Shown here: in pieces, positions 28,484 to 55,944 of the stretch | How the letters are laid out: the number at the start of each line of letters is the position of its first letter | Numbering within the stretch: the stretch's first letter is position 1 | Origin: Pleomorphomonas carboxyditropha | GTDB taxonomy: Bacteria; Pseudomonadota; Alphaproteobacteria; Rhizobiales; Pleomorphomonadaceae | Assembly (NCBI RefSeq): GCF_002770725.1 | Contig: NZ_NQVN01000013.1 | Span: 1 to 64,000, forward strand | Direction: 5' to 3' | DNA length: 64,000 bases | Translations under genes and position numbers: made by a program | Notes under the pieces: generated by a model | What the model saw: only the letters and a program-made list of their open reading frames with translations | The model's database searches: none | What the model was told of the DNA's origin: nothing

Positions 28484-28781
28484 CCGCCTTCCCATCACGC
28501 TGATCGGCGCCGGCGCCGCCGCCGGCCTCGTCACCGGCCTCTGGTGGTGGGTCGTCTACGGCCGGCAGGTCGATAGCGGCAGCCTGCCGCTCGCCAACGC
28601 CCTCTCCTGCCTCACCCGCAAGACCGACATCTGCTCGCTGGCCGAGGCGCTCTGCGCCCAAAGCCATGTTCTCGGCATCACCCATTATGCGCCGGCCGCC
28701 TTTTGGCTGTCCGCCGCCCTGCTCGCCGCCGGCCTCGTCCTGCTCGGCCGGCGGTCCCTTCCTCCGGAGAGCTTGCCATGA
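28476..28781 (+). CDS. Small two-helix membrane protein with cysteine-rich loop, unknown function
   Basis: A 101-residue protein I do not recognise. It has a membrane helix at about residues 5-26, a hydrophilic loop with three cysteines (SCLTRKTDICSLAEALC) and a second helix at about 70-90. The N-terminus is short and basic. The start is GTG at 28476 with GGGGG seven bases before it; an ATG at 28458 in the same frame lies inside the ATPase and has a weaker site. It overlaps the ATPase end by eight bases and the sulfhydrylase start by four (ATGA). The tight packing suggests that it belongs to the sulfur import unit, perhaps as an accessory membrane or redox factor. Confidence 0.7.
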   Translation: MSSRLPITLIGAGAAAGLVTGLWWWVVYGRQVDSGSLPLANALSCLTRKTDICSLAEALCAQSHVLGITHYAPAAFWLSAALLAAGLVLLGRRSLPPESLP

Positions 28782-30088
28782 ACGCGCCGACCCCGATCAA
28801 ACCGCCGCTGGCAATCGATACGCTGGTGCTGCACGGCGGCAGCTTCCGCGTCGATCCGGCCACCTCGGCCGTCGCCGTGCCGATCTACCAGACGACGTCC
28901 TTCGCCTTCGAGAGCACCGAGAAGGCCAAGCGCATCTCCGCCTTCGAGGAGATCGCCTACACCTATTCGCGCGTCGGCAACCCGACGGTCGACGCCTTCG
29001 AGCAGCGCCTTGCCGAGCTCGACGGCGGCGTCGCGGCGCTCGGCGTCGCCTCGGGACAGGCGGCCACCGCCGTCGCCGTGCTGTCGCTGGTGCAGGCCGG
29101 CGACAACATCGTCGCCTCGCGCGGCCTTTATGGCGGCACCGTCAATTTCTTCCGCGAGCGGCTGAAGCAGTTCGGCATCGAGGCGCGCTTCGTCGACGGC
29201 GACGCCCCCGAGGATTTCCGCCGGGCGACCGACGACCGCACCCGCCTCTATTTCGGCGAGACGCTGCCCAATCCGAGGCTCACGGTGTTCCCGATCCGCG
29301 AGGTGGCCGACATCGGCCGGCCGCTCGGCATACCGTTGATCATCGACAACACCGCCGCGCCGCTGGCCGCCCGGCCGCTCGACCACGGCGCCGCCATCGT
29401 CGTCTACTCGGCGACCAAGTATATCGGCGGCCACGGCACCACGATCGGCGGCGCCATCGTCGACGGCGGCTTCCCCTGGGCCGATTTCCCGGAGCGGCAG
29501 CCGCTGATCAACAGCCCCGACCCGGCCTACGACAATCGCTCCTACATCGATCTCGCCGCCGCCCTCGGCGGGCCGATCGCCTTCATCGTCCGCGCCCGCG
29601 CCGCCATCGTCCGCGACCTCGGGCCGTCGCTGTCGCCGCAGAATGCCTTCCAGCTCATCCAGGGCCTGGAAACGCTGCCGCTGCGCCTCGAACGGCATTT
29701 CAGCAATGCCGCCAAGGTGGCCGAGTTCCTCGCCCGGCATCCGAAGGTCGAGCGCACCGTCTATCCGGGCCTTCAGGCCGGCGAGCAGCGTCGGCGCGCC
29801 GACGCCTATCTCAAGGGCGGCTACGGCGCCTTGATCGGCTTCGAGCCGAAGGGCGGCGAAGAGGCGGCGCTCGCCTTCATCGACCGGCTGAAGCTGATCT
29901 ACCACCTCGCCAACATCGGCGACGCCCGCACGCTGGCCATCCACCCCTATTCGACGACGCACGGCCAGTTGTCGCCGGAGGAGAAGCTGGCCGCCGGGGT
30001 GACGCCGGCCTTCGTCCGGCTCTCCATCGGCATCGAGAACCCCGCCGACATCATCGCCGACATCGACCAGGCGCTGTCGGGGCTGTAG
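28778..30088 (+). CDS. metY: O-acetylhomoserine sulfhydrylase
   Basis: A 436-residue PLP enzyme of the Cys/Met metabolism family, of the long O-acetylhomoserine sulfhydrylase type. It joins O-acetylhomoserine with sulfide to give homocysteine, or with methanethiol to give methionine. PLP Lys214 lies in SATKYIGGHG, and YTYSRVGNPT and the glycine-rich ASGQAATA loop are present. The ATG at 28778 overlaps the previous stop; the frame extends 25 codons upstream but those residues are arginine- and proline-rich shadow sequence. In bacteria with methylthio-alkane reductase this enzyme captures the methanethiol released, which fits the mar operon 18 kb away. Cytoplasmic. Confidence 0.9.
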   Translation: MNAPTPIKPPLAIDTLVLHGGSFRVDPATSAVAVPIYQTTSFAFESTEKAKRISAFEEIAYTYSRVGNPTVDAFEQRLAELDGGVAALGVASGQAATAVAVLSLVQAGDNIVASRGLYGGTVNFFRERLKQFGIEARFVDGDAPEDFRRATDDRTRLYFGETLPNPRLTVFPIREVADIGRPLGIPLIIDNTAAPLAARPLDHGAAIVVYSATKYIGGHGTTIGGAIVDGGFPWADFPERQPLINSPDPAYDNRSYIDLAAALGGPIAFIVRARAAIVRDLGPSLSPQNAFQLIQGLETLPLRLERHFSNAAKVAEFLARHPKVERTVYPGLQAGEQRRRADAYLKGGYGALIGFEPKGGEEAALAFIDRLKLIYHLANIGDARTLAIHPYSTTHGQLSPEEKLAAGVTPAFVRLSIGIENPADIIADIDQALSGL

Positions 30089-30097
30089 GAGCCGGCC

Positions 30098-30770
30098 TCA
30101 GCGACTGTTGCGCCGCCGCGCCAGGCGATGGTTGACGGCGAAGGCGGCGCGGTCGCCGGCGAGCTGGATCACCTGCACCAGCACCACCAGGATGGCGACG
30201 ACCACCAGCATCACCTCCGGCATGAAGCGCTGGTAGCCGTAGCGGATGCCGAGGTCGCCGAGGCCGCCGCCGCCCACCGTGCCGGCCATGGTCGAGTAGC
30301 CGACCAGGCTGACCAGCGTCACCGTCACGCCGGCGACGATGCCCGGCAGCGCTTCGGGGATGATCACCTTGACGATGATCTGGAACGGCGTGGCGCCGAT
30401 CGCCTCGGCCGCCTCGATCAGTCCCCGGTCGACCTCGCGCATCGCCGTCTCGGCGAGGCGGGCGAACAGCGGCGTGATAGCCACGGTCAGCGGCACGATG
30501 GCCGCCGAGGTGCCGACCGAGGTGCCGACCAGCAGCCGGGTCAGCGGAATGATCGCCACCATCATGATGATGAAGGGCGTCGAGCGGATCAGGTTGACGA
30601 AGGTGCCGACCACCCGGTTGAGCAGCGGCCGGGCGAAGATGTGGCCGGGCGTCGTCACCACCAGCAGCACGCCGAGCGGCAGCCCCAGCACCAGGGCCAG
30701 CACCGCCGACACCGACACCATCACCGCCGTCTGGGTCAGCGAATCGAGAAGAAGGCTGGCCAGCGCCGGA

Positions 30771-30790
<20 letters not shown>
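30098..30790 (-). CDS. metI: Methionine ABC transporter permease MetI
   Basis: A 230-residue inner-membrane permease with five to six hydrophobic segments. NLIRSTPFIIMMVAIIPLTRLLVGTSVG and EAIGATPFQIIVKVIIPEALPGIVAGVTVTLVSLVGYSTMAGTVGGGGLGDLGIRYGYQRF are close to MetI signatures. It overlaps the 3' end of metN by 20 bases. It ends ten bases from the convergent sulfhydrylase gene, so transcripts from both sides meet here. It imports methionine or close analogues with MetN and MetQ. Confidence 0.93.
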
Positions 30791-31868
<1,078 letters not shown>

Positions 31869-31875
31869 CCGACCC

Positions 31876-32664
31876 TCACCAACTGACGATGATGTTGCCC
31901 TGGAACTCCTTGTCGATGAAGGCCTTCACCTCGGGCGAGCGATAGGCCTCGACCAGCGTCTTCACCCAGGGCTTGTCGGCGTTCTCCGGCTTGACGGCGA
32001 TCAGGCAGAAATACTCCGACTGCTGGCTCTCGATCAGCAGCGCGTCGCGGCTGGGCAACAGGCCGGCGCTGATGGCGAAATGCGAGGTGATCACCGAGAA
32101 GTCGACGTCCTCCAGCGAGCGCGGCAGTTGCGCCGTCTCCAGCGACAGGATCCTGACGTGCCTGGGGTTGTCGACGATGTCGAGCTCGGTCGCCTTGGAG
32201 GTGACGCCCGGCGTCAGCTTGATGATGCCGCCCTGGTCGAGCAGCTTCAGGGCGCGGCCGCCGTTGGAGGGGTCGTTGGGGATAGTGATCTCGGCGCCGT
32301 CCGGCAGGTCGGCGATCGACTTGACCTTACGCGAATAGGCGGCCATCGGCAGCAGCACCGTCTTGGCCACCGAGACGAGATGAAGGCCGCGGTCGGCATT
32401 CTGCTGCTCGAGATAGGGCGTGTGCTGGAAGGCGTTGGCGTCGAGGTCGCCGTCCTCGGTGGCCGGATCGATCAGCGCGCCGTCGGAAAACTCGACGATC
32501 TCGACGTCGAGCCCCCTGGCGGCGGCCACCGGCTTCAGCGCCTCGGCGATCTCAGCGTGCGGGCCGGCGGTGACGCCGAGCTTGATGGTTTCGGCGGCGG
32601 CGCCGCCGGCAAGGGCCAGCAGCAGGCCGAAGGCGGAAGCGGCAAGTAAATTCCTGACGGGCAT
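31876..32664 (-). CDS. metQ: Methionine ABC transporter binding protein MetQ
   Basis: A 262-residue NlpA/MetQ-family binding protein. The signal peptide is MPVRNLLAASAFGLLLALAGGAAA with no lipobox cysteine, so it is probably soluble in the periplasm rather than a lipoprotein. IKLGVTAGPHAEIAEALKPVAAARGLDVEIVEFSD and DANAFQHTPYLEQQN are typical of MetQ. Ligands may include L- or D-methionine or oxidised forms. It stands 16 bases downstream of the FAD dehydrogenase gene, so dehydrogenase, aminotransferase and metQNI probably share one transcript from near 35.3 kb. Confidence 0.92.
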   Translation of the reverse strand: MPVRNLLAASAFGLLLALAGGAAAETIKLGVTAGPHAEIAEALKPVAAARGLDVEIVEFSDGALIDPATEDGDLDANAFQHTPYLEQQNADRGLHLVSVAKTVLLPMAAYSRKVKSIADLPDGAEITIPNDPSNGGRALKLLDQGGIIKLTPGVTSKATELDIVDNPRHVRILSLETAQLPRSLEDVDFSVITSHFAISAGLLPSRDALLIESQQSEYFCLIAVKPENADKPWVKTLVEAYRSPEVKAFIDKEFQGNIIVSW

Positions 32665-42323: not shown

Positions 42324-43277
42324 ATGCCAGAAGGCCGCATGCCGAGCGCCCTCACCACCGTCGGCGGCGCGCCGCTGTCGCGGGTCGGGCTCGGCACGGC
42401 GGCCTTCGGCATGGGCGGCACCGGCGACGACCTCGCCGACGCCACCTTCCGGCATGCCATCGACCTCGGCATCAACTGGATCGACACCGACGCCATATTC
42501 GGCTTCGGCGGCGCCGAACGGCTCGTCGGCCGCACCCTGGCCGAGCTGCCCGCCGGCGACCGTCCGTTCATCGCCACCGCGGTCGGCTTCGACTGGGACG
42601 GCCGGTCGCGGCGGGCGACGCCGCAGCCGGCCATGGAGCCGCGCCGCCTGCGCCAGCAGCTCGAACGGTCGCTCGGCCGGCTCGGCGTCGAGGCGGTCGA
42701 CCTCGTCAAGCTCAACCTCGACGCCGGCTCCGACGCGCTGTTCGAGGATGCCTGGTCGACGCTGCTCGACCTCAAGCAGGGCGGCCTGGTGCGGGCGGTC
42801 GGCCTGATCGCGCCCGACAGCGCCCGCCTCGAACGCGCCGAGCGGATCGGCGCCTGCGACGCCGTCTACGTCGAGCTGTCGCTGATCGACCGCCGCGTCG
42901 GCGACAGCGAGCTTTTGTGGCGGCGGACGCCGACGCCGACCGTCATCGCCTATCGCGCGCTGGGCGGCGGCGGGCTGGTGGCGCCGGACGATCCGGCCGG
43001 CGAGCCCGCCCTCGGGCCGCTCCGGCATCTCATCCAGACGATCGCCGGCCGCCGGCACGCGACGCCGCCGGCCGTCGCCGCCGCCTGGAGCCTGACCTGG
43101 CCGGGGGTGGCCGGCGTCGCCGTCGGCGCCCGATGTCCCGAGCACGTCGCCGCCGTCGCCCCGGCGCCGGAGATCGACCTGTCCGTGCGCGACCTCTCCG
43201 ACATCGCCAACCTCCTGCCGACGCTCGGTGCCGGGCGCGGCCCCCTTCATCCCCGCCGGTTCGCCAAGGCAGCATGA
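42324..43277 (+). CDS. Aldo/keto reductase-fold protein lacking the catalytic tetrad
   Basis: A 317-residue protein with the aldo/keto reductase barrel: RVGLGTAAFGMGG at the N-terminus, HAIDLGINWIDTD, and ERSLGRLGVEAVDLVKLN. Of the tetrad Asp-Tyr-Lys-His, only Asp54 is kept. The Tyr position is Phe59 (IFGFGGAERLVG), the Lys position is Ala86 (IATAVG) and the His position is Asn131 (DLVKLN). Normal hydride transfer with acid catalysis is therefore unlikely, and it may be a binding or regulatory protein. GGAGCGAGG precedes the ATG. It lies between the permeases and cystathionine beta-synthase. The residue alignment is by eye. Confidence 0.75.
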   Translation: MPEGRMPSALTTVGGAPLSRVGLGTAAFGMGGTGDDLADATFRHAIDLGINWIDTDAIFGFGGAERLVGRTLAELPAGDRPFIATAVGFDWDGRSRRATPQPAMEPRRLRQQLERSLGRLGVEAVDLVKLNLDAGSDALFEDAWSTLLDLKQGGLVRAVGLIAPDSARLERAERIGACDAVYVELSLIDRRVGDSELLWRRTPTPTVIAYRALGGGGLVAPDDPAGEPALGPLRHLIQTIAGRRHATPPAVAAAWSLTWPGVAGVAVGARCPEHVAAVAPAPEIDLSVRDLSDIANLLPTLGAGRGPLHPRRFAKAA

Positions 43278-43306
43278 AACCGGCCGCGTTCTCCCAGGAG
43301 AAGTCC

Positions 43307-44692
43307 ATGTCCGCTCTCAGGAAACCCGCCCGCTCGGCGCTCGACCTGATCGGCGCCACGCCGGTGGTCGAACTGACCCGCTTCGACACCGGCCCCTGCC
43401 GCCTGTTCGTCAAGCTGGAAAGCGCCAACCCCGGCGGCTCGATCAAGGATCGCGTCGCCCTGTCGATGATCTCGGCCGCCGAGGCCGACGGCCGGCTGAA
43501 GCCGGGCGGCATCCTCATCGAGGCGACCGCCGGCAACACCGGCCTCGGCCTCGCCCAGGTCGGCCTGCCCAAGGGCTACAAGGTGATCCTCGTCGTGCCC
43601 GACAAGATGTCGCGCGAGAAGATCGCCCACCTGCGCGCCCTCGGCACCGACGTGCGCCTCACCCGCTCGGATGTCGGCAAGGGCCACCCCGCCTATTACC
43701 AGGACATGGCCGAGCGGCTGGCCGACGAACTCGGCGCCTTCTACGTCAACCAGTTCGCCAACCCGGCCAATCCGGCCGCCCACGAGACGACCACGGCGCC
43801 GGAGATCCACGCCCAGCTCGACGGCGACGTCGATGCCGTGGTGGTCGGCGTCGGCTCGGGCGGCACGCTTTCCGGCATCGGCCGCTATTTCAAGCGGGTG
43901 TCGCCGAAGACCGAGATGGTGCTCGCCGACCCCGAGGGCTCGGTGCTGGCGCCGCTCGTCAACACCGGCAAGCTGATCGAGGCCGGCTCCTGGGCCGTCG
44001 AGGGCATCGGCGAGGACTTCGTGCCGCCCAATTGCGACCTGTCGCTGGTATCGTCGGCCTACACCGTCACCGACGCCGAGAGCTTTGCCGCCGCCCGCGA
44101 GCTGCTGTCCAAGGAAGGCATCCTCGCCGGCTCGTCGTCGGGCACGCTGCTCGCCGCCGCGCTCAAGTACTGCCGGGCGCAGACGGTGCCGAAGCGCGTC
44201 GTCACGCTGGTCTGCGACACCGGCGCCAAATACCTCTCCAAGGTCTACGACGACGGCTGGCTGGCCGAGCAGGGGCTGGCCGACCGGCCGCTGCACGGCA
44301 ACCTGTCCGACCTGGTGATCCGCCGCCAGCAGGACGGCTCGACGGTCACCGTCGCCCCCGACGACACGCTGGCCACCGCCTACAAGCGGATGCGGCAGGC
44401 CGACGTGTCGCAGCTGCCGGTCGTCGCCGGCGGCCGCCTCGTCGGCATCATCGACGAGGGCGACCTCTATGTGGCGCTGGGGCGTGGCGCCGCCGCCGGC
44501 CAGGCCCGCTTCGGCGAGACGGTGGGCGAGCACATGATCACCGACCTGCACACGCTGCAATCCGTCGACCCGGTCAGCGCCGCCCTGCCGCTGTTCGAGC
44601 GCGGCGAAGTCGCCCTGGTGCTCGACGGCAGCGACTTCCTCGGCGTGGTCACCCGCGTCGATCTCATCAATCACCTGAGGCTCCATTCGTGA
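43307..44692 (+). CDS. Cystathionine beta-synthase with two CBS domains
   Basis: A 461-residue fold-type II PLP enzyme that joins serine and homocysteine to cystathionine. PLP Lys47 is in GGSIKDR, with EATAGNTGLG and the phosphate loop GVGSGGTLSGIG. There is no N-terminal haem region, unlike the animal enzyme. Two CBS domains fill residues about 335-455 (LPVVAGGRLVGIIDEGDLYVAL; VALVLDGSDFLGVVTRVDLI) and may sense S-adenosylmethionine or nucleotides. ATG at 43307 has AGGAG six bases upstream; an ATG at 43274 lacks this. Its stop overlaps the gamma-lyase start (GTGA). Cysteine synthase with CBS domains is a possible alternative activity. Confidence 0.87.
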   Translation: MSALRKPARSALDLIGATPVVELTRFDTGPCRLFVKLESANPGGSIKDRVALSMISAAEADGRLKPGGILIEATAGNTGLGLAQVGLPKGYKVILVVPDKMSREKIAHLRALGTDVRLTRSDVGKGHPAYYQDMAERLADELGAFYVNQFANPANPAAHETTTAPEIHAQLDGDVDAVVVGVGSGGTLSGIGRYFKRVSPKTEMVLADPEGSVLAPLVNTGKLIEAGSWAVEGIGEDFVPPNCDLSLVSSAYTVTDAESFAAARELLSKEGILAGSSSGTLLAAALKYCRAQTVPKRVVTLVCDTGAKYLSKVYDDGWLAEQGLADRPLHGNLSDLVIRRQQDGSTVTVAPDDTLATAYKRMRQADVSQLPVVAGGRLVGIIDEGDLYVALGRGAAAGQARFGETVGEHMITDLHTLQSVDPVSAALPLFERGEVALVLDGSDFLGVVTRVDLINHLRLHS

Positions 44693-45867
44693 CCTACCAG
44701 CCCCCGCGCATCAATCACCGGCTCGCCTTCTCGACCCGCACCATCCACGGCGGCCAGAGCCACGATCCCACCACCGGCGCCGTCATGGTGCCGATCTACG
44801 CCACCTCCACCTTCGCCCAGTCGAGCCCCGGCGTGCACAAGGGTTGGGAATACGGCCGCACCCACAATCCGACCCGCCAGGCCTTCGAGCGGGCGATCGC
44901 CGACCTCGAAAGCGGCACCGCCGGCTTCGCCTTCGCCTCGGGCCTCGCCGCCATCGCCAACATCCTGGAAACGCTCGACCACGGCGACCATATCGTCGCC
45001 TCCGACGACCTCTACGGCGGCACCTTCCGGCTGATCGACAAGGTGCGGCGGCGGTCGGCCGGCCTCGACGTGTCGTTCGCCGACTTCCGCGACCCCGCGG
45101 CCATCGAGGCGGCCATCCGGCCGGAGACCAAGCTGATCTGGGTGGAGACGCCGACCAACCCGATGCTGAAGATCGCCGATCTCCAGGCGATCGCCGCCAT
45201 CGGCCGCAAGCGCGACATCGTCACCGTCGCCGACAACACCTTCGCCAGCCCGGCCATCCAGCGGCCGCTCGAGCACGGCATCGACCTCGTCGTCCACTCG
45301 ACGACCAAGTATCTCAACGGCCATTCCGACATGATCGGCGGCACGGTGGTGGTCGGCGACAACGCCGAGCTGCGCGAGCGGCTGACCTTCCTGCAGAACG
45401 CCGTCGGCGCCGTGTCCGGGCCGTTCGACAGCTTTCTCGCCCTGCGCGGCCTCAAGACGCTGGCGCTCCGGATCGAGCGGCATTCGGCCAACGCGCTTTC
45501 CATCGCCCGCTATCTCGAAGGCCGCAAGGACGTCAGGCGGGTGATCTATCCCGGCCTCGACAGCCATCCGCAGCACGCGCTGGCCAAGTCGCAGATGTCG
45601 GCCTTCGGCGGCATCGTCAGCGTCGAGCTCGACCGCGACCTCGAGGGCACCAAGCGCTTTCTGGAAAACACCCGGCTGTTCACGCTGGCCGAAAGCCTCG
45701 GCGGCGTCGAGAGCCTGATCGAACATCCGGCGATCATGACGCACGCCTCGATCCCGCCCGAGCAGCGCGCCGCCCTCGGCATCTCCGACGGTTTGGTGCG
45801 GCTGTCCGCCGGCATCGAGGACGGCAACGACCTGATCGAAGACCTCAAGGCCGCCCTCGACGCGTGA
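44689..45867 (+). CDS. Cystathionine gamma-lyase/gamma-synthase family enzyme
   Basis: A 392-residue fold-type I PLP enzyme of the Cys/Met family. Lys207 (HSTTKYLNGHSDMIGG) binds PLP, and EYGRTHNPTRQAFE and ASGLAAIANILETL are family landmarks. Next to cystathionine beta-synthase it most likely cleaves cystathionine to cysteine, 2-oxobutanoate and ammonia, completing reverse transsulfuration. The GTG start overlaps the upstream stop by three bases, so the two are translationally coupled. Methionine gamma-lyase activity, which would also release methanethiol, cannot be excluded by reading. Confidence 0.87.
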   Translation: MTYQPPRINHRLAFSTRTIHGGQSHDPTTGAVMVPIYATSTFAQSSPGVHKGWEYGRTHNPTRQAFERAIADLESGTAGFAFASGLAAIANILETLDHGDHIVASDDLYGGTFRLIDKVRRRSAGLDVSFADFRDPAAIEAAIRPETKLIWVETPTNPMLKIADLQAIAAIGRKRDIVTVADNTFASPAIQRPLEHGIDLVVHSTTKYLNGHSDMIGGTVVVGDNAELRERLTFLQNAVGAVSGPFDSFLALRGLKTLALRIERHSANALSIARYLEGRKDVRRVIYPGLDSHPQHALAKSQMSAFGGIVSVELDRDLEGTKRFLENTRLFTLAESLGGVESLIEHPAIMTHASIPPEQRAALGISDGLVRLSAGIEDGNDLIEDLKAALDA

Positions 45868-46214: not shown

Positions 46215-47084
46215 TCACGCCACCGCCCGCGCCCGCTCGGCCCGTTCCATTTGGACGATATGCTCGGCCCAGCTTGCCGACCAGTCGCGCAGCTCGGTCT
46301 GGCTGAGCGGCGTCGGCACCTTCGACTGCTCGTGGCCGGCGATGTGGCGGGCGAGCGCCCGGTAGACGTCGGCCTGCTCGGATTGCGGCGCCGCCTCGAT
46401 GGTGGTCTTGCCGGACAGTTCGGCCTGGGTGACGGTGAGCGAGCGCGGCACGAACTGGACGATCGGCGTCGAGGTCTTGGCGGCGAAGTCCTCGATGATC
46501 TCGCGCTGGAAATCGGTGTTGATCGAGTTGGCGATGATGCCGCCGAGCAGCGCGCCGCCGGAATTGGAGAATTTCTCGATGCCGCGGAACAGGTTGTTGG
46601 CGGCGTAGATGGCCATGAAGTCGGCCGACGACACGGTGAACACGTGCTCGGCGATGCCCTCGCGCACCGGCACGGCGAAGCCGCCGCACACCACGTCGCC
46701 GAGCACGTCGTAGATGACGAAATCGAGGTCGAGGTCCTCGAAGACGCGCTGCTGCTTCAGGAGCTCGACGGCGGTGATGATGCCGCGGCCGGCGCAGCCG
46801 ACGCCGGGCGCCGGGCCGCCGGCCTCGACGCAGTAGATGCCGGCAAAGCCCTTGAACACCGCCTCGCGGGCATCGACCCGGCGCTTTTCGGCCAGGAGAT
46901 CGAGCACCGACGGGATGTATTCGCCGCCGCGCAGCGTCGTCGTGGAGTCGGCCTTCGGGTCGCAGCCGAACTGCATCACCTTGTAGCCGGCCTCGGCGAG
47001 GGCGGCGGAGATGTTGGAGGTGGTCGTCGACTTGCCGATGCCGCCCTTGCCGTAGATGGCGATCTGCTTGGGTTTGCGGGACAT
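46215..47084 (-). CDS. marH: NifH-like ATP-dependent reductase, MarH
   Basis: A 289-residue homodimeric iron-sulfur ATPase of the NifH/BchL/BchX superfamily. Walker A GKGGIGKS is at 12-19, and the cluster-bridging cysteines are Cys97 (GVGCAGRG) and Cys133 (DVLGDVVCGGFAVP). It would hydrolyse ATP to push low-potential electrons into the MarD-MarK component. Arg100 sits where nitrogenase reductase is ADP-ribosylated. It is the last gene of the operon, 30 bases after marB. The NifB- and NifD-like partners and organosulfur neighbours favour methylthio-alkane reductase over chlorophyll, F430 or nitrogenase systems. Confidence 0.85.
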   Translation of the reverse strand: MSRKPKQIAIYGKGGIGKSTTTSNISAALAEAGYKVMQFGCDPKADSTTTLRGGEYIPSVLDLLAEKRRVDAREAVFKGFAGIYCVEAGGPAPGVGCAGRGIITAVELLKQQRVFEDLDLDFVIYDVLGDVVCGGFAVPVREGIAEHVFTVSSADFMAIYAANNLFRGIEKFSNSGGALLGGIIANSINTDFQREIIEDFAAKTSTPIVQFVPRSLTVTQAELSGKTTIEAAPQSEQADVYRALARHIAGHEQSKVPTPLSQTELRDWSASWAEHIVQMERAERARAVA

Positions 47085-47114
47085 GAGGAACTCCTTGAAA
47101 AGAGGAAAGGGCGG

Positions 47115-48047
47115 TCAGCCGTGCGAAAAGGTCGGCTCGGCGACGAGATCGTCGCCGTAGAGGTCGCGGGTGTAGTCGGTGAGGCCTGGCACGCCGGCGG
47201 CGTCGGCGCGGCAGCGCTGGCAGTGGGTGAACACCTTGAGATGCCGCGCGGCGGCGGCGCGCGCCTTGTGGCGCTCGATGAACGTCGGCTCCCTGAGGTG
47301 GGCGAGCTGGTGCTCGGGGATCAGCGGGATGACGTTGATCATCCGAGCGCCGGCGGCCGCCACCCTTTCGGCCACGGCGCCGATGTGATGGTCGTTGAGG
47401 GTGGGGATCAGCACGGTGTTGATCTTGATCGTCAGGCCGAGCCCGGCGGCGCGGGCGATGCCGTCGAGCTGGTTGGCGATCAGACGCTCGGTCGCCGCGA
47501 GACCGTCGAGCCGCTTCCGCTGCCAGGCGAGCTTGGGGGTGATCGCCGCCTGGATCGCCGGGTCGACGGCGTTGACGGTCACCGTCAGCGTCGTCACGCC
47601 GGCGGCGTGGAGATCGTCGACGCGGGCCGGCAACATCAGGCCGTTGGTGGAGACGCAGAGCGTCAGCTCCGGCCAGCGGGCGTGGATGCGGGCGAAGGTG
47701 TCGATGGCATGGTCGGAGGCGAGCGGATCGCCGGGGCCGGCGATGCCGACCACCGTGAGGTTGGGGATCAGCCGCAGCGCCCGCTCGACCACGGCGACCG
47801 CCTCGCCGGGCTTGAGCAGCCGCGCCGCCACGCCGGGCCGCTGCTCGACGCGGTTGAAGTCGCGCCGGCAGAAGGCGCAGGCGATGTTGCAGGCCGGCGA
47901 GACCGGCAGATGCAGCCGCGCCGCCTTGGCGTGGCCCTCCGCCGTCGTCGAGAAGCAGGGATGATGGCCTTCGAGATCGGGGAAGGCCGGCTGCATCGAC
48001 GCCTGGCGCAGGGCGTGGGCCGCGCAGGCGGTGGAGGGCGCGCTCAT
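47115..48047 (-). CDS. marB: NifB-like radical SAM cofactor synthase, MarB
   Basis: A 310-residue radical SAM protein. The CxxxCxxC motif is Cys53-Cys57-Cys60 (PACNIACAFCRRDFNR), preceded by the NifB mark HPCFSTTAEGHAKAARLHL and followed by GIAGPGDPLA. A C-terminal CQRCRADAAG supplies further cysteines. NifB fuses two [4Fe-4S] units with a carbide to make the Fe8S9C precursor of nitrogenase cofactor. The fused C-terminal NifX domain of many NifBs is missing; a separate NifX-like gene lies directly upstream and overlaps by four bases (ATGA). Start: ATG at 48047; the longer frame only adds shadow residues. Its presence implies that the enzyme carries a large NifB-type cluster. Confidence 0.85.
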   Translation of the reverse strand: MSAPSTACAAHALRQASMQPAFPDLEGHHPCFSTTAEGHAKAARLHLPVSPACNIACAFCRRDFNRVEQRPGVAARLLKPGEAVAVVERALRLIPNLTVVGIAGPGDPLASDHAIDTFARIHARWPELTLCVSTNGLMLPARVDDLHAAGVTTLTVTVNAVDPAIQAAITPKLAWQRKRLDGLAATERLIANQLDGIARAAGLGLTIKINTVLIPTLNDHHIGAVAERVAAAGARMINVIPLIPEHQLAHLREPTFIERHKARAAAARHLKVFTHCQRCRADAAGVPGLTDYTRDLYGDDLVAEPTFSHG

Positions 48048-48415
48048 GCCGCCGTCTCCGCGGTGAACAGGCCGTCGAAGGCGGCAAGCTCGCGCAGCGC
48101 GTCGTCCACCCGATCGTCGGTCTCGAAGGCGAGAATGCCGAGCCTGGACAGGCGATTGATGGCGCATTCGCCGAGCCGCGACACCACCACCGCCCGGCAG
48201 TCGGCGACGAGGGCGACGGAGGCGTCCATTACTTCATCGGCGCGATCGCCGCACCCCGATCCGCAGGCGGGGCGGTTGTTGCGGGTTTCAAGGAAGCGCG
48301 TGCCGGCCGGGCCCACCTCCCAGATCTCGAAGCGGGTGGCATGGCCGAAGTGCTCGCTGACGCGGGCGCCGCTGGCGGTGCCGATGGCGACGCGGACGGG
48401 GCTGGAAAGGGTCAT
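48044..48415 (-). CDS. NifX/NifB-C-terminal-like cofactor carrier protein
   Basis: A 123-residue protein of the dinitrogenase iron-molybdenum cofactor biosynthesis family. VSEHFGHATRFEIWEV is the hallmark strand and LGECAINRLSRLGI the second conserved part. A CxxxC pair (Cys51, Cys55 in PACGSGCGD) is inserted in the middle. Such proteins hold NifB-cofactor or other cluster intermediates between NifB and the apo-enzyme. It overlaps marK and marB by four bases each, so its dose is coupled to both. I infer that it shuttles the cluster from MarB to MarDK. Confidence 0.8.
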   Translation of the reverse strand: MTLSSPVRVAIGTASGARVSEHFGHATRFEIWEVGPAGTRFLETRNNRPACGSGCGDRADEVMDASVALVADCRAVVVSRLGECAINRLSRLGILAFETDDRVDDALRELAAFDGLFTAETAA

Positions 48416-49815
48416 GACGCGGCCGCCTCCGGGTTCTCCTCGGTCGACTGGCGCACCACGGTGGTGTAGGTGCGCTCGATGAGCTGCAGGGCGCCGCGAT
48501 AGCCGACGTAGGCGCGGTTCAGCACCACCTCGTCGGTGACCGGATAGCTCACCTCGACGAGCGGCGCGCCGATCTCGGCGGCGATGTTCGCCTCCCAGGT
48601 CGAGCCGAAGACGATCGGCAGCTCGCCGATCCGGTCATGCGCCCGGATGACGGCGTGCGCCCGGTGGCCGTCGGTCTCGAACAGCGGCTCGCCGTCGATG
48701 CCGGGCGCGAGGTCGCGGAAGGCGGCGACGATGCCGTCGCGTTCGCTGTCCGGCGGGTTCTCGGTGACGACGATGACGCCGGGATTGAGCCCGAGGTCGC
48801 CGACCAGGAACTTCGAGACGGCGAGCGCATAGGCGCTGTCGGCGACGACGTTCACCTCCGACGGCAGCCGGTACTGGCTGGTGCAGCCGGAATAGAAATG
48901 GGCGAAGTCGCGGAGGTAGCGGTAATAGGTCCGCTCCTCGGCGGCGACGAAGGTGTCCACCTTGCTCCGGGCGATGCCGGCATGGTCGCCGACGGCGCGC
49001 AGGAAGGCCGCCGTCTGCCGCGCGCCGACCGGCAGGGCCGGAATGTGCAGCGTCGGCTGGCCGTAGGCCGCTTCGAGGTCGCGGGCGGTGGACAAGCCCA
49101 GCCAGGGCGACAGCACCAGGTTGAATTCGGCCGAGGGGACGGCGCGCCATTCGGCAAGGCCGGCCGAGGCCGGACCGAACAGGATGTTCACCTCGAGGCC
49201 GATGCCCTCCAGCAGGCGGCGGATCTCGGTGAGGTCGCCGCGCCAGAACGGGTTCTGGTAGGGCAACAGCGACCAGACGTTGACGAGGCCGGCCCGCTTC
49301 GGCGCGGCCGGCTGTTTCGCCACGTATTGTTCGAGGATGGCCTTCACCACCGTCTCGTGGCCGGTGAAGTTGTTGCCGCGATAGCCGAGCGTCTCGGCGA
49401 AGACGATGGGAACGCCGCGGCGCTGATAGCTGCGCACCACGTTGTCGACGTCGTCGCCGACCAGGCCGGGAATGCAGCCGGACTGCACGACGTAGAGCTC
49501 GGCCTCCATGATCTTCAGCGTCGAGGCGATCAGCTCGTCGAGGCGGTCGGCGCCGCCGAAGATCACTTCCTTGTTGCCGATGTTGGTGGAGGGAACGTGG
49601 AACTCGCCGCCCTGGTAGCCGGAGATGCCGGACAGCGCGTGGAACTGCTTCGATGCGCAGCCGGGGCCGCAATGGGTGATCGGGATCGCCCCCTCGATGG
49701 CGATCACCGAGGTGAGCGCGCCGAGGGCGCAGGCGTAGCGCACCTGCTCGATCGGGCCGGGCGGCGCGATAAACGAGGCCGAGGGCACGGCGGCAATGGG
49801 AGTGAGGACGTTCAT
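48412..49815 (-). CDS. marK: NifK-like catalytic component subunit, MarK
   Basis: A 467-residue oxidoreductase/nitrogenase component 1 family subunit. Cys29 (RYACALGAL), Cys49 or Cys53 (THCGPGCASKQ) and Cys114 (QSGCIPGLVGDD) match the P-cluster ligand positions of NifK. FHVPSTNIGNKEVIFGGADRLDELI is a conserved family segment. It is shorter than NifK (about 510-520), as it lacks the long N-terminal wrap. It would pair with MarD as a heterotetramer and host a P-cluster-type electron relay. It begins 13 bases after marD. BchB/BchZ-type or NifN assignments are less likely given the neighbours. Confidence 0.85.
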   Translation of the reverse strand: MNVLTPIAAVPSASFIAPPGPIEQVRYACALGALTSVIAIEGAIPITHCGPGCASKQFHALSGISGYQGGEFHVPSTNIGNKEVIFGGADRLDELIASTLKIMEAELYVVQSGCIPGLVGDDVDNVVRSYQRRGVPIVFAETLGYRGNNFTGHETVVKAILEQYVAKQPAAPKRAGLVNVWSLLPYQNPFWRGDLTEIRRLLEGIGLEVNILFGPASAGLAEWRAVPSAEFNLVLSPWLGLSTARDLEAAYGQPTLHIPALPVGARQTAAFLRAVGDHAGIARSKVDTFVAAEERTYYRYLRDFAHFYSGCTSQYRLPSEVNVVADSAYALAVSKFLVGDLGLNPGVIVVTENPPDSERDGIVAAFRDLAPGIDGEPLFETDGHRAHAVIRAHDRIGELPIVFGSTWEANIAAEIGAPLVEVSYPVTDEVVLNRAYVGYRGALQLIERTYTTVVRQSTEENPEAAAS

Positions 49816-49828
49816 CGGATGCTCCGGC

Positions 49829-51334
49829 TCATTCGGCGGCTTCTAGGGCGAAGGGATCGGTCTCCTCCAGCCACTCCCGCCGGTAGGGGAAGGCGGAATG
49901 GGCCTCGACGTCCTCGTAGAAGCGGCGGCGCGGCAGCACGCGCAGGATGGCGCGGCCGATGGTCAGGAGGCCGTCGTAGCCGATGCCGTCGTTGGAATAG
50001 AAGATCGGCAGCACCGGGATGCCCATGCGGGCGGCGAGGACGGCCATGGTGCCGGAATGGCGGCAGATGACGAAGTCGGGCCTTGCCCGCTTCAGCGCCG
50101 CGTGCGCCTGGAAATGCTGGTCGGGGCTGACGGTGAAGTTGCGCACGTCGCCGGTGGTCTGCACCAGGTGGCCGAGCGAATCCTGCTCCGGATCGCCGCT
50201 GTCGGTGGAAGGATCGTGGTGGAAGGAATAGGCGTCGTCGACGGTGACGCCGAGCTCGCGCAGGTCGGCGATCAGGCCGTGGGCGAAGGCGGCGCCGGCG
50301 GCGACGAAGCCCTTCTTGCCCTTGAGGAGCCGTCTGAGGCGGTCGAGCTCCGGCGCGATGCGGGCGCGCTCGGAGGCGATCACCGCCTCGACGAGATGCG
50401 TCCGGCCGGTGACGCGGGCGATGTCGCGCAGCCAGTTGTCGCTGGCGTCGAGGCCGTAGGGCAAGGGCGCGCGGATCTCCGGCACGCCGTATTCCTGCTC
50501 GAGGCCGGTGGCGAGGTAGCTGAGCACGAAGCACATGGTCACCGTCGCCGCCGCCGTCGACAGCGCCGCCAGCCGTTCGAGCGGGTTGCCGCCCATGACG
50601 AGGTTGACCTCGAGGCCGAGCGGGTTGAGCAGCGGCGAGAACACGTCGGGGCCGCCGAGGTGGATGACGTTGATCAGGTCGGGATTCTTGTCGTCCGGCC
50701 GGTGCGGCACCAGGCGGCGCAGGATGCCGTGCTCGATGACGTCCCAGCCCGACGACCAGTGGCGCGACTTGAAGCCCTCGCAGTGGAGCGGCACCACGGG
50801 AATGCCGATCTCCTCCTCCAACTGGCGGGCGGTGCCGTCGACGTCGTCGCCGATGATGCCGGTGGCGCAGGAGGTGGCGACGAAGATGACGCGCGGATGG
50901 TGGCGCTCGTAGGCGTCGCGGATGGTATCGGCGAGGCGCTCGACGCCGCCGAACACCATGTCCTGCTCGCCGAGATTGGTACAGATGGAGCGCGGGTCCT
51001 CCGGCTTCCAGCCGCGCCGGGCGGCGAGATCGCGCGAATAGCGCGAGGTGAACGACTGGCTGGAGGCGCAGCCGATCGGCGCATGCTGGATCACCACCGT
51101 GTCGCGGATGATGGTGGCGTTGGTGACCGCGATCTGCTCGGCGCACATCGACGCCTGCGAATAGGGGCTCGACAGCTCGCAGAGCCGCCGGCCGCCGGGA
51201 CCGCAGTCGCGGCCGCAGCCGAAGGTGAAGGCGCTGTCCCTGGCGAGCTGCGCGGCGCTGCCGTCCCATTGGGTGATGGTGCCGAGGCGCTGCTCGCGCG
51301 TCTCGGCCTGCGGGGTGCGAAGATTGATCGGCAT
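49829..51334 (-). CDS. marD: NifD-like catalytic subunit, MarD
   Basis: A 501-residue nitrogenase component 1-like subunit, first gene of the operon. Cys64 (SMCAEQIAV), Cys89 (PIGCASSQSF) and Cys156 (ATSCATGIIGDD) match the NifD P-cluster ligands. Cys268 (VTMCFVLSYLATGLEQEYG) is placed like the cofactor ligand Cys275 of NifD. The position of the NifD cofactor His442 reads IFYSNDGIGYDG with no His, and the HCEGF loop continues SRHWSSGW instead of the Gln and His that serve N2 reduction. This fits a cluster-bearing enzyme with another substrate. MAR reduces methylthio-alkanes such as (2-methylthio)ethanol or dimethylsulfide to methanethiol and a hydrocarbon. The alignment is by eye. Confidence 0.85.
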   Translation of the reverse strand: MPINLRTPQAETREQRLGTITQWDGSAAQLARDSAFTFGCGRDCGPGGRRLCELSSPYSQASMCAEQIAVTNATIIRDTVVIQHAPIGCASSQSFTSRYSRDLAARRGWKPEDPRSICTNLGEQDMVFGGVERLADTIRDAYERHHPRVIFVATSCATGIIGDDVDGTARQLEEEIGIPVVPLHCEGFKSRHWSSGWDVIEHGILRRLVPHRPDDKNPDLINVIHLGGPDVFSPLLNPLGLEVNLVMGGNPLERLAALSTAAATVTMCFVLSYLATGLEQEYGVPEIRAPLPYGLDASDNWLRDIARVTGRTHLVEAVIASERARIAPELDRLRRLLKGKKGFVAAGAAFAHGLIADLRELGVTVDDAYSFHHDPSTDSGDPEQDSLGHLVQTTGDVRNFTVSPDQHFQAHAALKRARPDFVICRHSGTMAVLAARMGIPVLPIFYSNDGIGYDGLLTIGRAILRVLPRRRFYEDVEAHSAFPYRREWLEETDPFALEAAE

Positions 51335-51444
51335 ATGGTGGTATCCCTGTCGGCTGGCCGCTCGAACGGACCGGTCGCCGAAGGATGAATGCGACCATCC
51401 CGGCGACCCCTGGCTTTCAGGAGATCACGGGTGAACATTAGACG

Positions 51445-51461
51445 ATAGATTTAGTATTTTA
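51445..51461 (+). promoter_or_regulatory. AT-rich motif shared with met promoter, mar copy
   Basis: This 17-base site matches 35359-35375 at 14 positions and lies 111 bases upstream of marD, in the same orientation. The 337-base gap 51335-51671 otherwise holds no gene and should contain the mar promoter and the aldolase gene's end. Confidence 0.5.
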
Positions 51462-51671
51462 AAAGAGCTCGGGCGTGAGCAGTTTTTGCCCGCAAACGGC
51501 GAAGCGCCGGGAACTCGTTTTCAAGGAGGCCGCTTAGTACATCATACTTACGATGTTTTACTTAAGAACGACTTTGCCGAGATTGCTCATGCCTATGATT
51601 TGCAGTCCTTATTTCCATGTGGCTCGCCCGAGGCCTGCGAAACGTCGATCCCGCGTCGCCGACGCCGGCCC

Positions 51672-52739
51672 TCAAGCCACGCTGGACCGCAGTGGCTCGG
51701 CGGCGGCCGCCGCCGCCGCGCGAATGTCGGCCGCCAGCTCGTCGACACGCGCCGGATCGGCGTCCCAGGCGAACATGAAGCGGGCGCCGCCGCCGATGAA
51801 GGTGTAGAAGCGCCAGCCGCGACGGCGCAACTCGTCCAGCACGCCGTCCGGGGCGCTCAGGAACACCGAGTTCGCCTCCACGGGAAAAAGGAACGCGATG
51901 CCGGGCGCGCCGGCAATCGCCGCCGCCAGCCGCGCCGCGCAGGCATTGCCGTGGCGGGCATTGCGCAGCCAGGCGCCGCTTTCCAGCATGCCGATCCACG
52001 GCGCCGACAGGAAGCGCATCTTCGAGGCGAGCTGGCCGGCCTGCTTGCAGCGATAGTCGAAATCCTCGGCGAGGGCCCTGTCGAAGAAGATGACGGCCTC
52101 GCCGGCCGCCATGCCGTTCTTGGTGCCGCCGAAACAGAGCACGTCGACGCCGGCCTGCCAGGACAGTTCGGCGGGCGAGCAGCCGAGCGCCGCGCAGGCG
52201 TGGGCGAAGCGGGCGCCGTCCATGTGCAGCTTGAGCCCCAGCTCGCGGCAGACCGCCGCGATGGCCCGCACCTCGTCGAGGCTGTAGACGAGGCCGGTTT
52301 CGGTCGGCTGGGTGATGGTCACCACCCTCGGCTTGGGAAAGTGGATGTCGGACCGGCTGCCGGCCAGCGTCCTGATGATCGCCGGCGTCAGCTTGGGCGA
52401 CGCCGAGGGCGCGACCAGCAGCTTCGAGCCGTTGGAAAAGAACTCGGGCGCGCCGCATTCGTCGGTTTCCACGTGCGCCGACGACGCGCAGATGACGCTG
52501 TGGAACGACTGGCAGAGGGCGGCGAGCGCCAGCGAATTGGCGGCCGTGCCGTTGAACACGAAAAACACCTCGCAGTCCTTTTCGAACAGCCGCCGGAAGG
52601 CATCGGCGGCGCGCTCGGTCCAGGCGTCGTCGCCATAGGCAACGGCCGAGCCGCCGTTGGCCCGCTCCATCTCGGCCCAGGCCTCGGGGCAGATGCCGGC
52701 GTAGTTGTCGCTTGCGAATTGCTGGGCGGGATGGGTCAC
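51672..52739 (-). CDS. Low-specificity L-threonine aldolase-like PLP enzyme
   Basis: A 355-residue fold-type I PLP enzyme of the threonine aldolase/beta-eliminating lyase family. FASDNYAGICPEAWAEM is the N-terminal mark, Lys207 lies in CFGGTKNGMAAGEA, and LHMDGARFAHA is the cofactor Asp motif. It cleaves threonine or other beta-hydroxy amino acids to glycine and an aldehyde. It reads away from the mar operon's promoter region on the same strand, after 337 bases, so it is probably a separate unit. Link with sulfur metabolism is only by position. Confidence 0.87.
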   Translation of the reverse strand: MTHPAQQFASDNYAGICPEAWAEMERANGGSAVAYGDDAWTERAADAFRRLFEKDCEVFFVFNGTAANSLALAALCQSFHSVICASSAHVETDECGAPEFFSNGSKLLVAPSASPKLTPAIIRTLAGSRSDIHFPKPRVVTITQPTETGLVYSLDEVRAIAAVCRELGLKLHMDGARFAHACAALGCSPAELSWQAGVDVLCFGGTKNGMAAGEAVIFFDRALAEDFDYRCKQAGQLASKMRFLSAPWIGMLESGAWLRNARHGNACAARLAAAIAGAPGIAFLFPVEANSVFLSAPDGVLDELRRRGWRFYTFIGGGARFMFAWDADPARVDELAADIRAAAAAAAEPLRSSVA

Positions 52740-53154
52740 GTCAGCGTCCTCTCTTCCTTGAAAGGCGGAGCGACGCGCGTGGCTTCAATCCCGTTGTTTG
52801 CCGGTCGGCCACATCCCCTTCTTGCGAAGGGCACCACCTTGCCCGGGAGCAGGTTGGTGTCGGGCGTCTCCCCGACTCTTGATGCATGCATGGCAATTAC
52901 CACCGCGGCCCGGCGGCGGCAACCGCTTGTCGCATCGCCGCGCCCCGCACCGGCCGGGCCCATACGGAACACAGCGTAGGCCGTTGCGCCAGCGGTGGTT
53001 CCATCCTATTCCAGTTCGGTGCCGTGGCGGCCGGTTTTCGCGTTTCCGTGCTCGCCGGTGGCCGGCCACCGGTCACCGCACGGATCGAACAATCGGCTGC
53101 GCGCCCGCGAAAGCGGATGGGCGGGCGCCAAAAATCAACGAGGGGATATCGAAT
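52740..53154. other. Gene-free divergent promoter region
   Basis: About 415 bases between the divergent aldolase and PLP-enzyme genes. No gene, tRNA or clear palindrome was recognised. The only visible signal is a GAGGGG ribosome site before 53155. Confidence 0.4.
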
Positions 53155-54660
<1,506 letters not shown>

Positions 54661-54663
54661 GCC

Positions 54664-55944
<1,281 letters not shown>

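Follow-up and report, generated by a model that had tools for sequence, protein, structure and literature searches.

A second, paralogous operon of the methylthio-alkane reductase family in Pleomorphomonas carboxyditropha, with altered ligand loops in MarD

Five nitrogenase-like genes lie at positions 46215 to 51334 of the stretch of Pleomorphomonas carboxyditropha DNA analyzed here (the window: the first 64,000 nucleotides of contig NZ_NQVN01000013.1). They raise the question of whether they are the methylthio-alkane reductase (MAR) operon of this strain, and thus a source of methionine sulfur and hydrocarbon gas from known thioethers, or something else within the nitrogenase superfamily. A preliminary description, made from the sequence alone, had read them as a complete MAR operon acting on dimethylsulfide or (2-methylthio)ethanol. 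In this study, we compared the operon with its relatives in other genomes and found that it belongs to the MAR family by sequence and that it is not the orthologue of the characterized enzyme of Rhodospirillum rubrum. Our reading, to which we give a probability of about 0.7, is that it encodes a second, paralogous MAR-type C-S reductase that would share the maturase of the canonical enzyme, deliver a thiol to methionine synthesis and probably have another substrate preference.

The layout of the operon is as first described. All five packed genes are found on the minus strand in the 5' to 3' order marD-marK-nifX-like-marB-marH (Table 1), and the junctions were confirmed from the sequence: 13 nt separate D from K, the K/X and X/B junctions are four-base ATGA overlaps, and the 30 nt between B and H carry an AAGGAG ribosome site. 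Pfam and NCBIfam models assign D and K to Oxidored_nitro, H to Fer4_NifH and B to the NifB-type radical SAM proteins. The NifX-like product, here called MarX, matches the NifB model over positions 329-437 of 441, the NifX-type part at its C-terminus, which indicates that NifB is split over two genes with the NifX part first.

The closest structures are those of the R. rubrum MAR. MarD matches PDB entry 9fmg best (601 bits, E=1.2e-179; best nitrogenase, 138 bits), MarK matches 9d9u/9fmg (546 bits, E=6.2e-163; next, a NifE-annotated entry, 69 bits) and MarH matches 9fmg (527 bits, E=1.2e-157; next, 287 bits). Conservation was counted over 23 MarD sequences that include that of the window and form one clade (below; hereafter window-type), with MarD active-site residues taken from PMC12552129 and given in R. 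rubrum numbering. The P-cluster cysteines C66, C91 and C158, the [Fe8S9C] ligands C270 and H429 with the adjacent R428, and W195, H194 and H375 are present in all 23. The Arg428-His429 pair has been proposed as a hallmark of MAR (PMC12552129). MarK keeps its P-cluster cysteines C32, C56 and C121 in 22/22 rows, the MarK of locus L029 having been dropped from the 23 because its match overran a stop codon. MarB carries all six NifB motifs listed in PMC5715403 (HPC, Cx3Cx2C, ExRP, AGPG, TxTxN and Cx2CRxDAxG), and in the alignment MarH retains the P-loop and Cys97/Cys133, with GVGCAGRG and DVLGDVVCGG conserved. The claim that the cluster ligands of H, D and K and the radical SAM motif of NifB are kept is therefore borne out by alignment. 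When the window MarD was compared with the NifD and AnfD of the same genome, by the residue list of PMC12552129, the nitrogenase residues at Val70, Gln191, His195 and His442 (Azotobacter vinelandii numbering) were not kept; Trp193 and Trp197 occupy the Gln191 and His195 positions, and the loop that bears the FeMoco histidine has no histidine. The scores of D and K also fall far short of the cut-offs set for the BchN, BchB, BchZ and methan_mark_13 models listed for the chlorophyll and F430 families. The MAR best matches, the retained ligands and MarB motifs and the absence of nitrogenase-specific residues together assign the window system, on sequence grounds, to the MAR family.

Membership in the family does not make this operon the counterpart of the R. 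rubrum enzyme, as a closer copy exists in the same genome (5.88 Mb, 80 contigs). Contig C22 carries a second MarD, in the order H-D-K with no marB adjoining, that is 82% identical to R. rubrum MarD, whereas the window MarD is 54% identical to R. rubrum MarD and 54% identical to the C22 copy. The R. rubrum reference is genome G1041, so taken because its MarD is 100% identical to 9fmg chain A over 498 residues; no window-type copy was found in it at E<=1e-60. In a maximum-likelihood tree of 81 rows, the 23 window-type MarD are monophyletic (support 100/100, stem 0.76) and join the R. rubrum type at 96/98, apart from a Firmicutes-dominated group. After pruning of the three outgroups, all nitrogenases, and of eight other rows, among them one of the R. 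rubrum type, support is 100/100 both for the window-type clade and for its joint clade with the R. rubrum type, and the MarK tree shows the same split with an SH-aLRT of 100. The window-type rows are 19 named loci (L020-L038), the window and genomes G686, G713 and G414; the R. rubrum type comprises 22 distinct tabulated sequences, or 23 rows when the typed copy of 9fmg is counted. Six more full-length matches without a locus and two further Rhodopseudomonas genomes that have both types are not tabulated, and BchYZ, CfbD and IsrD sequences are absent from the trees. As regards the phylogeny that had been proposed as a check, the trees place the D protein with R. rubrum MarD and apart from both nitrogenase and the Firmicutes-dominated group. 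By sequence, window D-K is a paralogous second clade, and the orthologue of R. rubrum MarDK is the C22 copy, to which the characterized MAR activity belongs by orthology. What stands of the preliminary description is the family; that this is "the" MAR operon of the strain does not.

The window-type is a separate branch that is apparently unstudied: the available portions of the open literature, including PMC10418091, PMC12151479 and PMC13245594, hold no description of a second MarD clade, with North 2020 and Murali 2025 outside that scope. Among group IV it is not uncommon for a genome to have several nifDK-like copies (PMC9147875). R. rubrum itself has a second NifDK-like pair (G1041 L126/L128, at L128 10097-12858 on the minus strand, ~24 kb from marBHDK); neither B nor H was found next to it. 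We ruled this pair out as a member of the window-type, as its D is 41% identical to the window MarD, falls on a long branch in the Firmicutes-dominated group and lacks the window-type indels described below. In genome G414, which also has a window-type D-K, locus L090 (8906-11962) contains two tandem R. rubrum-type marD genes, each 76% identical to the C22 MarD, followed by one marK.

The changes that set the window-type MarD apart lie in part around the predicted cluster site. One residue is lost just after Cys270 (CFVL-SY against CYTLSTY) and one is gained just after His429 (RHSGTMA against RHNG-LA); each indel occurs in 23/23 window-type sequences and in 0/56 other tabulated MarD-like rows. 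The same 23/23 against 0/56 holds for FYSN at 447-450, where the R. rubrum type has GD followed by two residues (GDEH in R. rubrum). This segment aligns with the stretch leading into the FeMoco-holding histidine loop of nitrogenase and may border the void left by homocitrate in MAR. Compared with the R. rubrum type, Gln74 is replaced by Asn, Phe199 by Trp, Phe269 by Met and Tyr271 by Phe in all 23 window-type sequences, and Ile427 by Cys in 22 of them. Cys73 is replaced by Thr in 22/23, at a position that is also variable in the R. rubrum type (Cys in 17/23). Among columns conserved within both types, 23/160 differ in D and 2/121 in K (Fisher 1e-4). Since both ligand loops and several residues beside the active site are changed throughout the clade while MarK is little changed, the substrate range of the window-type probably differs from that of R. 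rubrum MAR.

How the window-type enzyme would be matured can be approached from gene counts and locus order. At E<=1e-60, nine of the 23 genomes contain no MarD other than the window-type (window-only genomes), and 14 contain a canonical MarD as well (two-type genomes). The genes X-B-H directly follow D-K in nine loci, namely, the window and those of eight of the nine window-only genomes; in the ninth, Rhodopseudomonas palustris JSC-3b, X-B-H lies ~7 kb from D-K with no canonical pair (D2-K2) beside it. In contrast, D-K stands without a following X-B-H in 13 of the 14 two-type genomes, several of which pair X-B-H or B-H with D2-K2. A genome-wide search for MarB-like genes (at least 50% identity) returned exactly one in 19/23 genomes, comprising all nine window-only and 10 of the 14 two-type genomes. 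Of the two-type genomes, 11 of 14 have a single MarH (at least 76% identity), which in G792 is a partial match; at that identity no MarH was found in the metagenome-assembled G790. In the window genome there is one MarB in all for D-K-X-B-H in the window and H-D2-K2 on C22; the other NifB-like protein of that genome is the nitrogenase NifB on C55. These counts indicate that window-type D-K is autonomous and that in most genomes it would use the MarB and MarH of the canonical MAR. One MarB per genome fails as a general rule, as 4/23 genomes have two copies. A small number of lineages, rather than independent events, underlies all these counts, and several of the genomes were assembled from metagenomes.

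Some individual genomes add detail to this picture. The window genome encodes nifHDKEN and Fe-only anfHDK (C31:11606-18893, locus L013, and C22:307283-311600, locus L014), and four catalytic complexes expected to need NifB-type clusters stand there against one NifB and one MarB found. Where a second MarB-like gene occurs, in G781, G783, G784 and G795, it is 50-60% identical (L024, L038 and L135), and X adjoins it in L024 (G781) and L038 (G795). In Rhodoblastus sphagnicola, a remnant at ~13181-13480 of L130 (minus strand) joins the start of a window-type D to the end of K ahead of X-B-H-D2-K2, and a further MarD fragment (residues 1-142) lies on another contig. The remnant suggests an ancestral D-K-X-B-H-D2-K2 order.

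We would describe the working of the enzyme as follows, reasoning from domains, retained ligands, gene counts and neighborhood. MarB, from its NifB motifs, would build an [Fe8S9C] cluster that MarX, from its NifX domain, would probably carry or shield. Inserted into MarD, the cluster would be held between Cys268 and His426 of the window protein, both of which are kept. MarH would hydrolyze ATP and deliver electrons, by way of the P-cluster that MarD and MarK share and whose six cysteines are intact, to the [Fe8S9C] cluster, where, by analogy with the family, the C-S bond of an organosulfur compound would be reductively cleaved. O-acetylhomoserine sulfhydrylase and the transsulfuration enzymes encoded nearby could then use the freed thiol or sulfide. 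A single MarB would appear to serve both types, as would a single MarH in most two-type genomes.

The neighborhood gives the likely destination of the product. The transsulfuration, O-acetylhomoserine sulfhydrylase and methionine transport genes named in the preliminary description were all located in the window (Table 1), the sulfhydrylase and MetINQ ~14-16 kb from marH. Elsewhere, of the 14 window-type loci in which X-B-H does not follow D-K, 10 have an O-acetylhomoserine-sulfhydrylase-type gene immediately upstream of D-K (its identity is that of one representative, L026, named by NCBIfam), and MetN/MetI or a cystathionine beta-synthase/gamma-lyase pair is present in several window-type loci. 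On one flank of the C22 MAR are genes for thiamine synthesis; on the other are ABC transporter, sulfatase and NMT1-type genes. The sulfhydrylase of the window could join methanethiol to O-acetylhomoserine, and a thiol or sulfide product that enters methionine synthesis is the simplest account of this setting.

Table 1. Features of the window discussed in the text, with coordinates in the 64,000-nucleotide stretch
Feature	Coordinates	Strand	Remarks
marD, window-type, catalytic alpha subunit, 501 aa	49829..51334	-	P-cluster Cys64/89/156, cluster Cys268 and Arg425-His426 kept
marK, window-type, catalytic beta subunit, 467 aa	48412..49815	-	three P-cluster cysteines kept
marX, stand-alone NifX-type domain, 123 aa, putative cluster carrier	48044..48415	-	equivalent to the C-terminal domain of bacterial NifB
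marB, NifB-like radical SAM maturase, 310 aa	47115..48047	-	best start ATG at 48047; six NifB motifs
marH, Fe-protein-like reductase, 289 aa	46215..47084	-	P-loop and both cluster cysteines kept
marD upstream region	51335..51671	-	conserved blocks common to Pleomorphomonas relatives
PLP-dependent Beta_elim_lyase/threonine-aldolase-like gene, upstream of marD	51672..52739	-	
SAM-I/IV riboswitch aptamer, upstream of the aldolase-like gene	52784..52890	-	Rfam, 54 bits
Two PLP (PALP) genes, cysteine-synthase-like and threonine-synthase-like	52798-54660, 54664-55944	+	divergent from the riboswitch-aldolase unit
ORF with cystathionine gamma-synthase/gamma-lyase family enzyme (residues 499-879)	43228..45867	+	convergent with marH
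ORF with cystathionine beta-synthase (residues 141-587)	42917..44692	+	
MetI, MetN, MetQ methionine importer	30098..32664	-	
O-acetylhomoserine sulfhydrylase	28703..30088	+	

Upstream of marD, at 51335-51570 on the minus strand, the blocks conserved among relatives include GTAA/TTAAGTA repeats, TAAATCTATCGTCTA and a GGTCGC...GCGACC inverted repeat in the likely leader. It is likely that marD has its own promoter or leader there, with a possible regulator site or leader RNA. An Rfam scan of this upstream stretch listed nothing except the SAM riboswitch, and at the Rfam gathering score no SAM riboswitch was found in the loci of five relatives (L020-L024). Control of the mar genes by the riboswitch is disfavored by that result and by the 337-nt gap, with its conserved blocks, that parts the aldolase-like gene from marD.

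The trait is sporadic. At 1e-60, and including the window genome in the counts for its order, family and class, matches occur in 10/397 genomes of the order and in 6/20 of the family, all within the genus (6/14 members). In a class-wide sample 1/385 genomes matched, the window genome alone, with no match in the 384 others. Matches were found in 6/297 genomes of the order of Magnetospirillum fulvum and in 9/150 relatives of a Rhodopseudomonas genome. Among the sequences examined, the window-type occurs solely in Alphaproteobacteria; Pleomorphomonas, Roseiarcus and Siculibacillus include strains that have it alone. Plasmid carriage was considered and set aside, with two records, both of them distant (<60%) matches.

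Several observations weigh against the reading of a second MAR-type reductase with a shared maturase and a shifted substrate preference. Two MarB-like genes occur in four Rhodopseudomonas genomes (G781, G783, G784 and G795), and two MarH occur in the window genome and in G791. The vicinity of marB in R. rubrum yielded no MarX, from which it follows that MarX is not essential to the family. The association of the D-K-X-B-H operon with window-only genomes has a Fisher P of 1.6e-4, a value that overstates independence because essentially just two lineages underlie the link; in addition, some window-only genomes were assembled from metagenomes and may be missing genes. The R. rubrum type forms one clade in just 26% and 10% of bootstrap trees and is not a single clade in the best trees, so the window-type may be its sister or be nested within it. 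MarH passes the NCBIfam nifH cut-off (403 against 394 bits); H alone therefore cannot separate MAR from nitrogenase, and a nifH label would mislead. The differing D columns are weakly enriched near the active site, as 6/23 fall within two residues of a published active-site residue compared with 14/137 unchanged columns (Fisher P=0.045); the D indels, which that count does not contain, are in our judgment the stronger sign. The pocket changes could be neutral or could tune just affinity or oxygen tolerance. The methylthioadenosine salvage marker MtnA is present in 30/31 genomes tested; it was uninformative as a marker to separate the MarD types, and its presence gives no clue to the substrate.

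The strongest competitor, which we regard as a serious possibility short of even odds, is that the window operon is a plain isoenzyme, catalyzing the same reactions as R. rubrum MAR (on dimethylsulfide, ethyl methyl sulfide and (2-methylthio)ethanol) and differing in affinity, regulation or stability. This is the reading of the preliminary description. The cluster ligands, the kinds of maturase and reductase genes and the methionine-linked neighborhood are all alike. R. rubrum MarBHDK (PDB 9fmg and 9d9u; Rru_A0793-A0796) shares with the window operon the H, D, K and B components, the ligands of both clusters and the Arg-His hallmark and differs in having the order B-H-D-K and no extra marX. 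That the window-type is the sole MarD in 9/23 genomes also fits. However, the co-occurrence of both types in 14/23 genomes and the ligand-loop changes fixed in all 23 suggest a division of labor, and production of methanethiol plus hydrocarbon from dimethylsulfide or (2-methylthio)ethanol by the window operon is an extrapolation across ~46% sequence difference and a changed pocket. At the other end stands the proposal, to which we likewise give less than even odds, that window-type MarDK forms an [Fe8S9C] enzyme in its own right, whose physiological substrate is other than the methylthio-alkanes of R. rubrum MAR. Such an enzyme would have arisen through the paired one-residue loop indels and FYSN beside the homocitrate void, and it would share its maturase and Fe protein with canonical MAR.

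Readings outside catalysis by a MAR-type enzyme fare much worse. Window-type D-K might be a NifEN-like assembly platform for canonical MarDK, since in L027, L033, L034 and L037 the paralogue stands beside the canonical set as nifEN stands beside nifDK, yet we consider this very unlikely: nine of the 23 genomes have window-type D-K without another MarD, canonical MarD occurs without the window-type in R. rubrum (G1041) and in three more members of its order, and R. rubrum marBHDK yields an active enzyme in a heterologous host (PMC12552129). The gene counts and locus orders given above likewise argue against a scaffold role. An unconventional, NfaDK-like nitrogenase that fixes nitrogen is more improbable still. 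The window proteins do keep P-cluster and large-cluster ligands, and they resemble NifHDK, AnfHDK and NifEN in architecture, in the P-cluster cysteines and in the cluster cysteine, but the nitrogenase-specific positions are lost, with Trp193 and Trp197 and a histidine-free loop in their place, and Mo- and Fe-only nitrogenases are already encoded elsewhere in the genome. In addition, the Endomicrobium sequences fall in another clade, and R. rubrum MAR does not reduce N2 (PMC12552129). We give equally little credence to a sulfonate enzyme of the isethionate reductase (Isr) type. The IsrBHDK system of Rhodobacter capsulatus is also a group IV B-H-D-K set with a radical SAM partner and a role in sulfur assimilation (PMC11423573). 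IsrD, compared here by its description in that paper, lacks two of the three P-cluster cysteines and the FeMoco-type cysteine, all of which the window D keeps, and IsrB, distantly NifB-like, shares just the radical SAM motif with NifB, whereas the window B has six NifB motifs.

On the reading we prefer, that of a paralogous MAR-type C-S reductase with probably another substrate preference, cells with two paralogues, mostly one MarB, the same ligands, an electron donor of the same kind and different ligand loops amount to a natural experiment on the pocket. The annotation "MAR operon" does not by itself mean that a strain makes methane or ethylene from known thioethers. The strains of Pleomorphomonas, Roseiarcus and Siculibacillus that show the window-type alone allow a direct test of its function.

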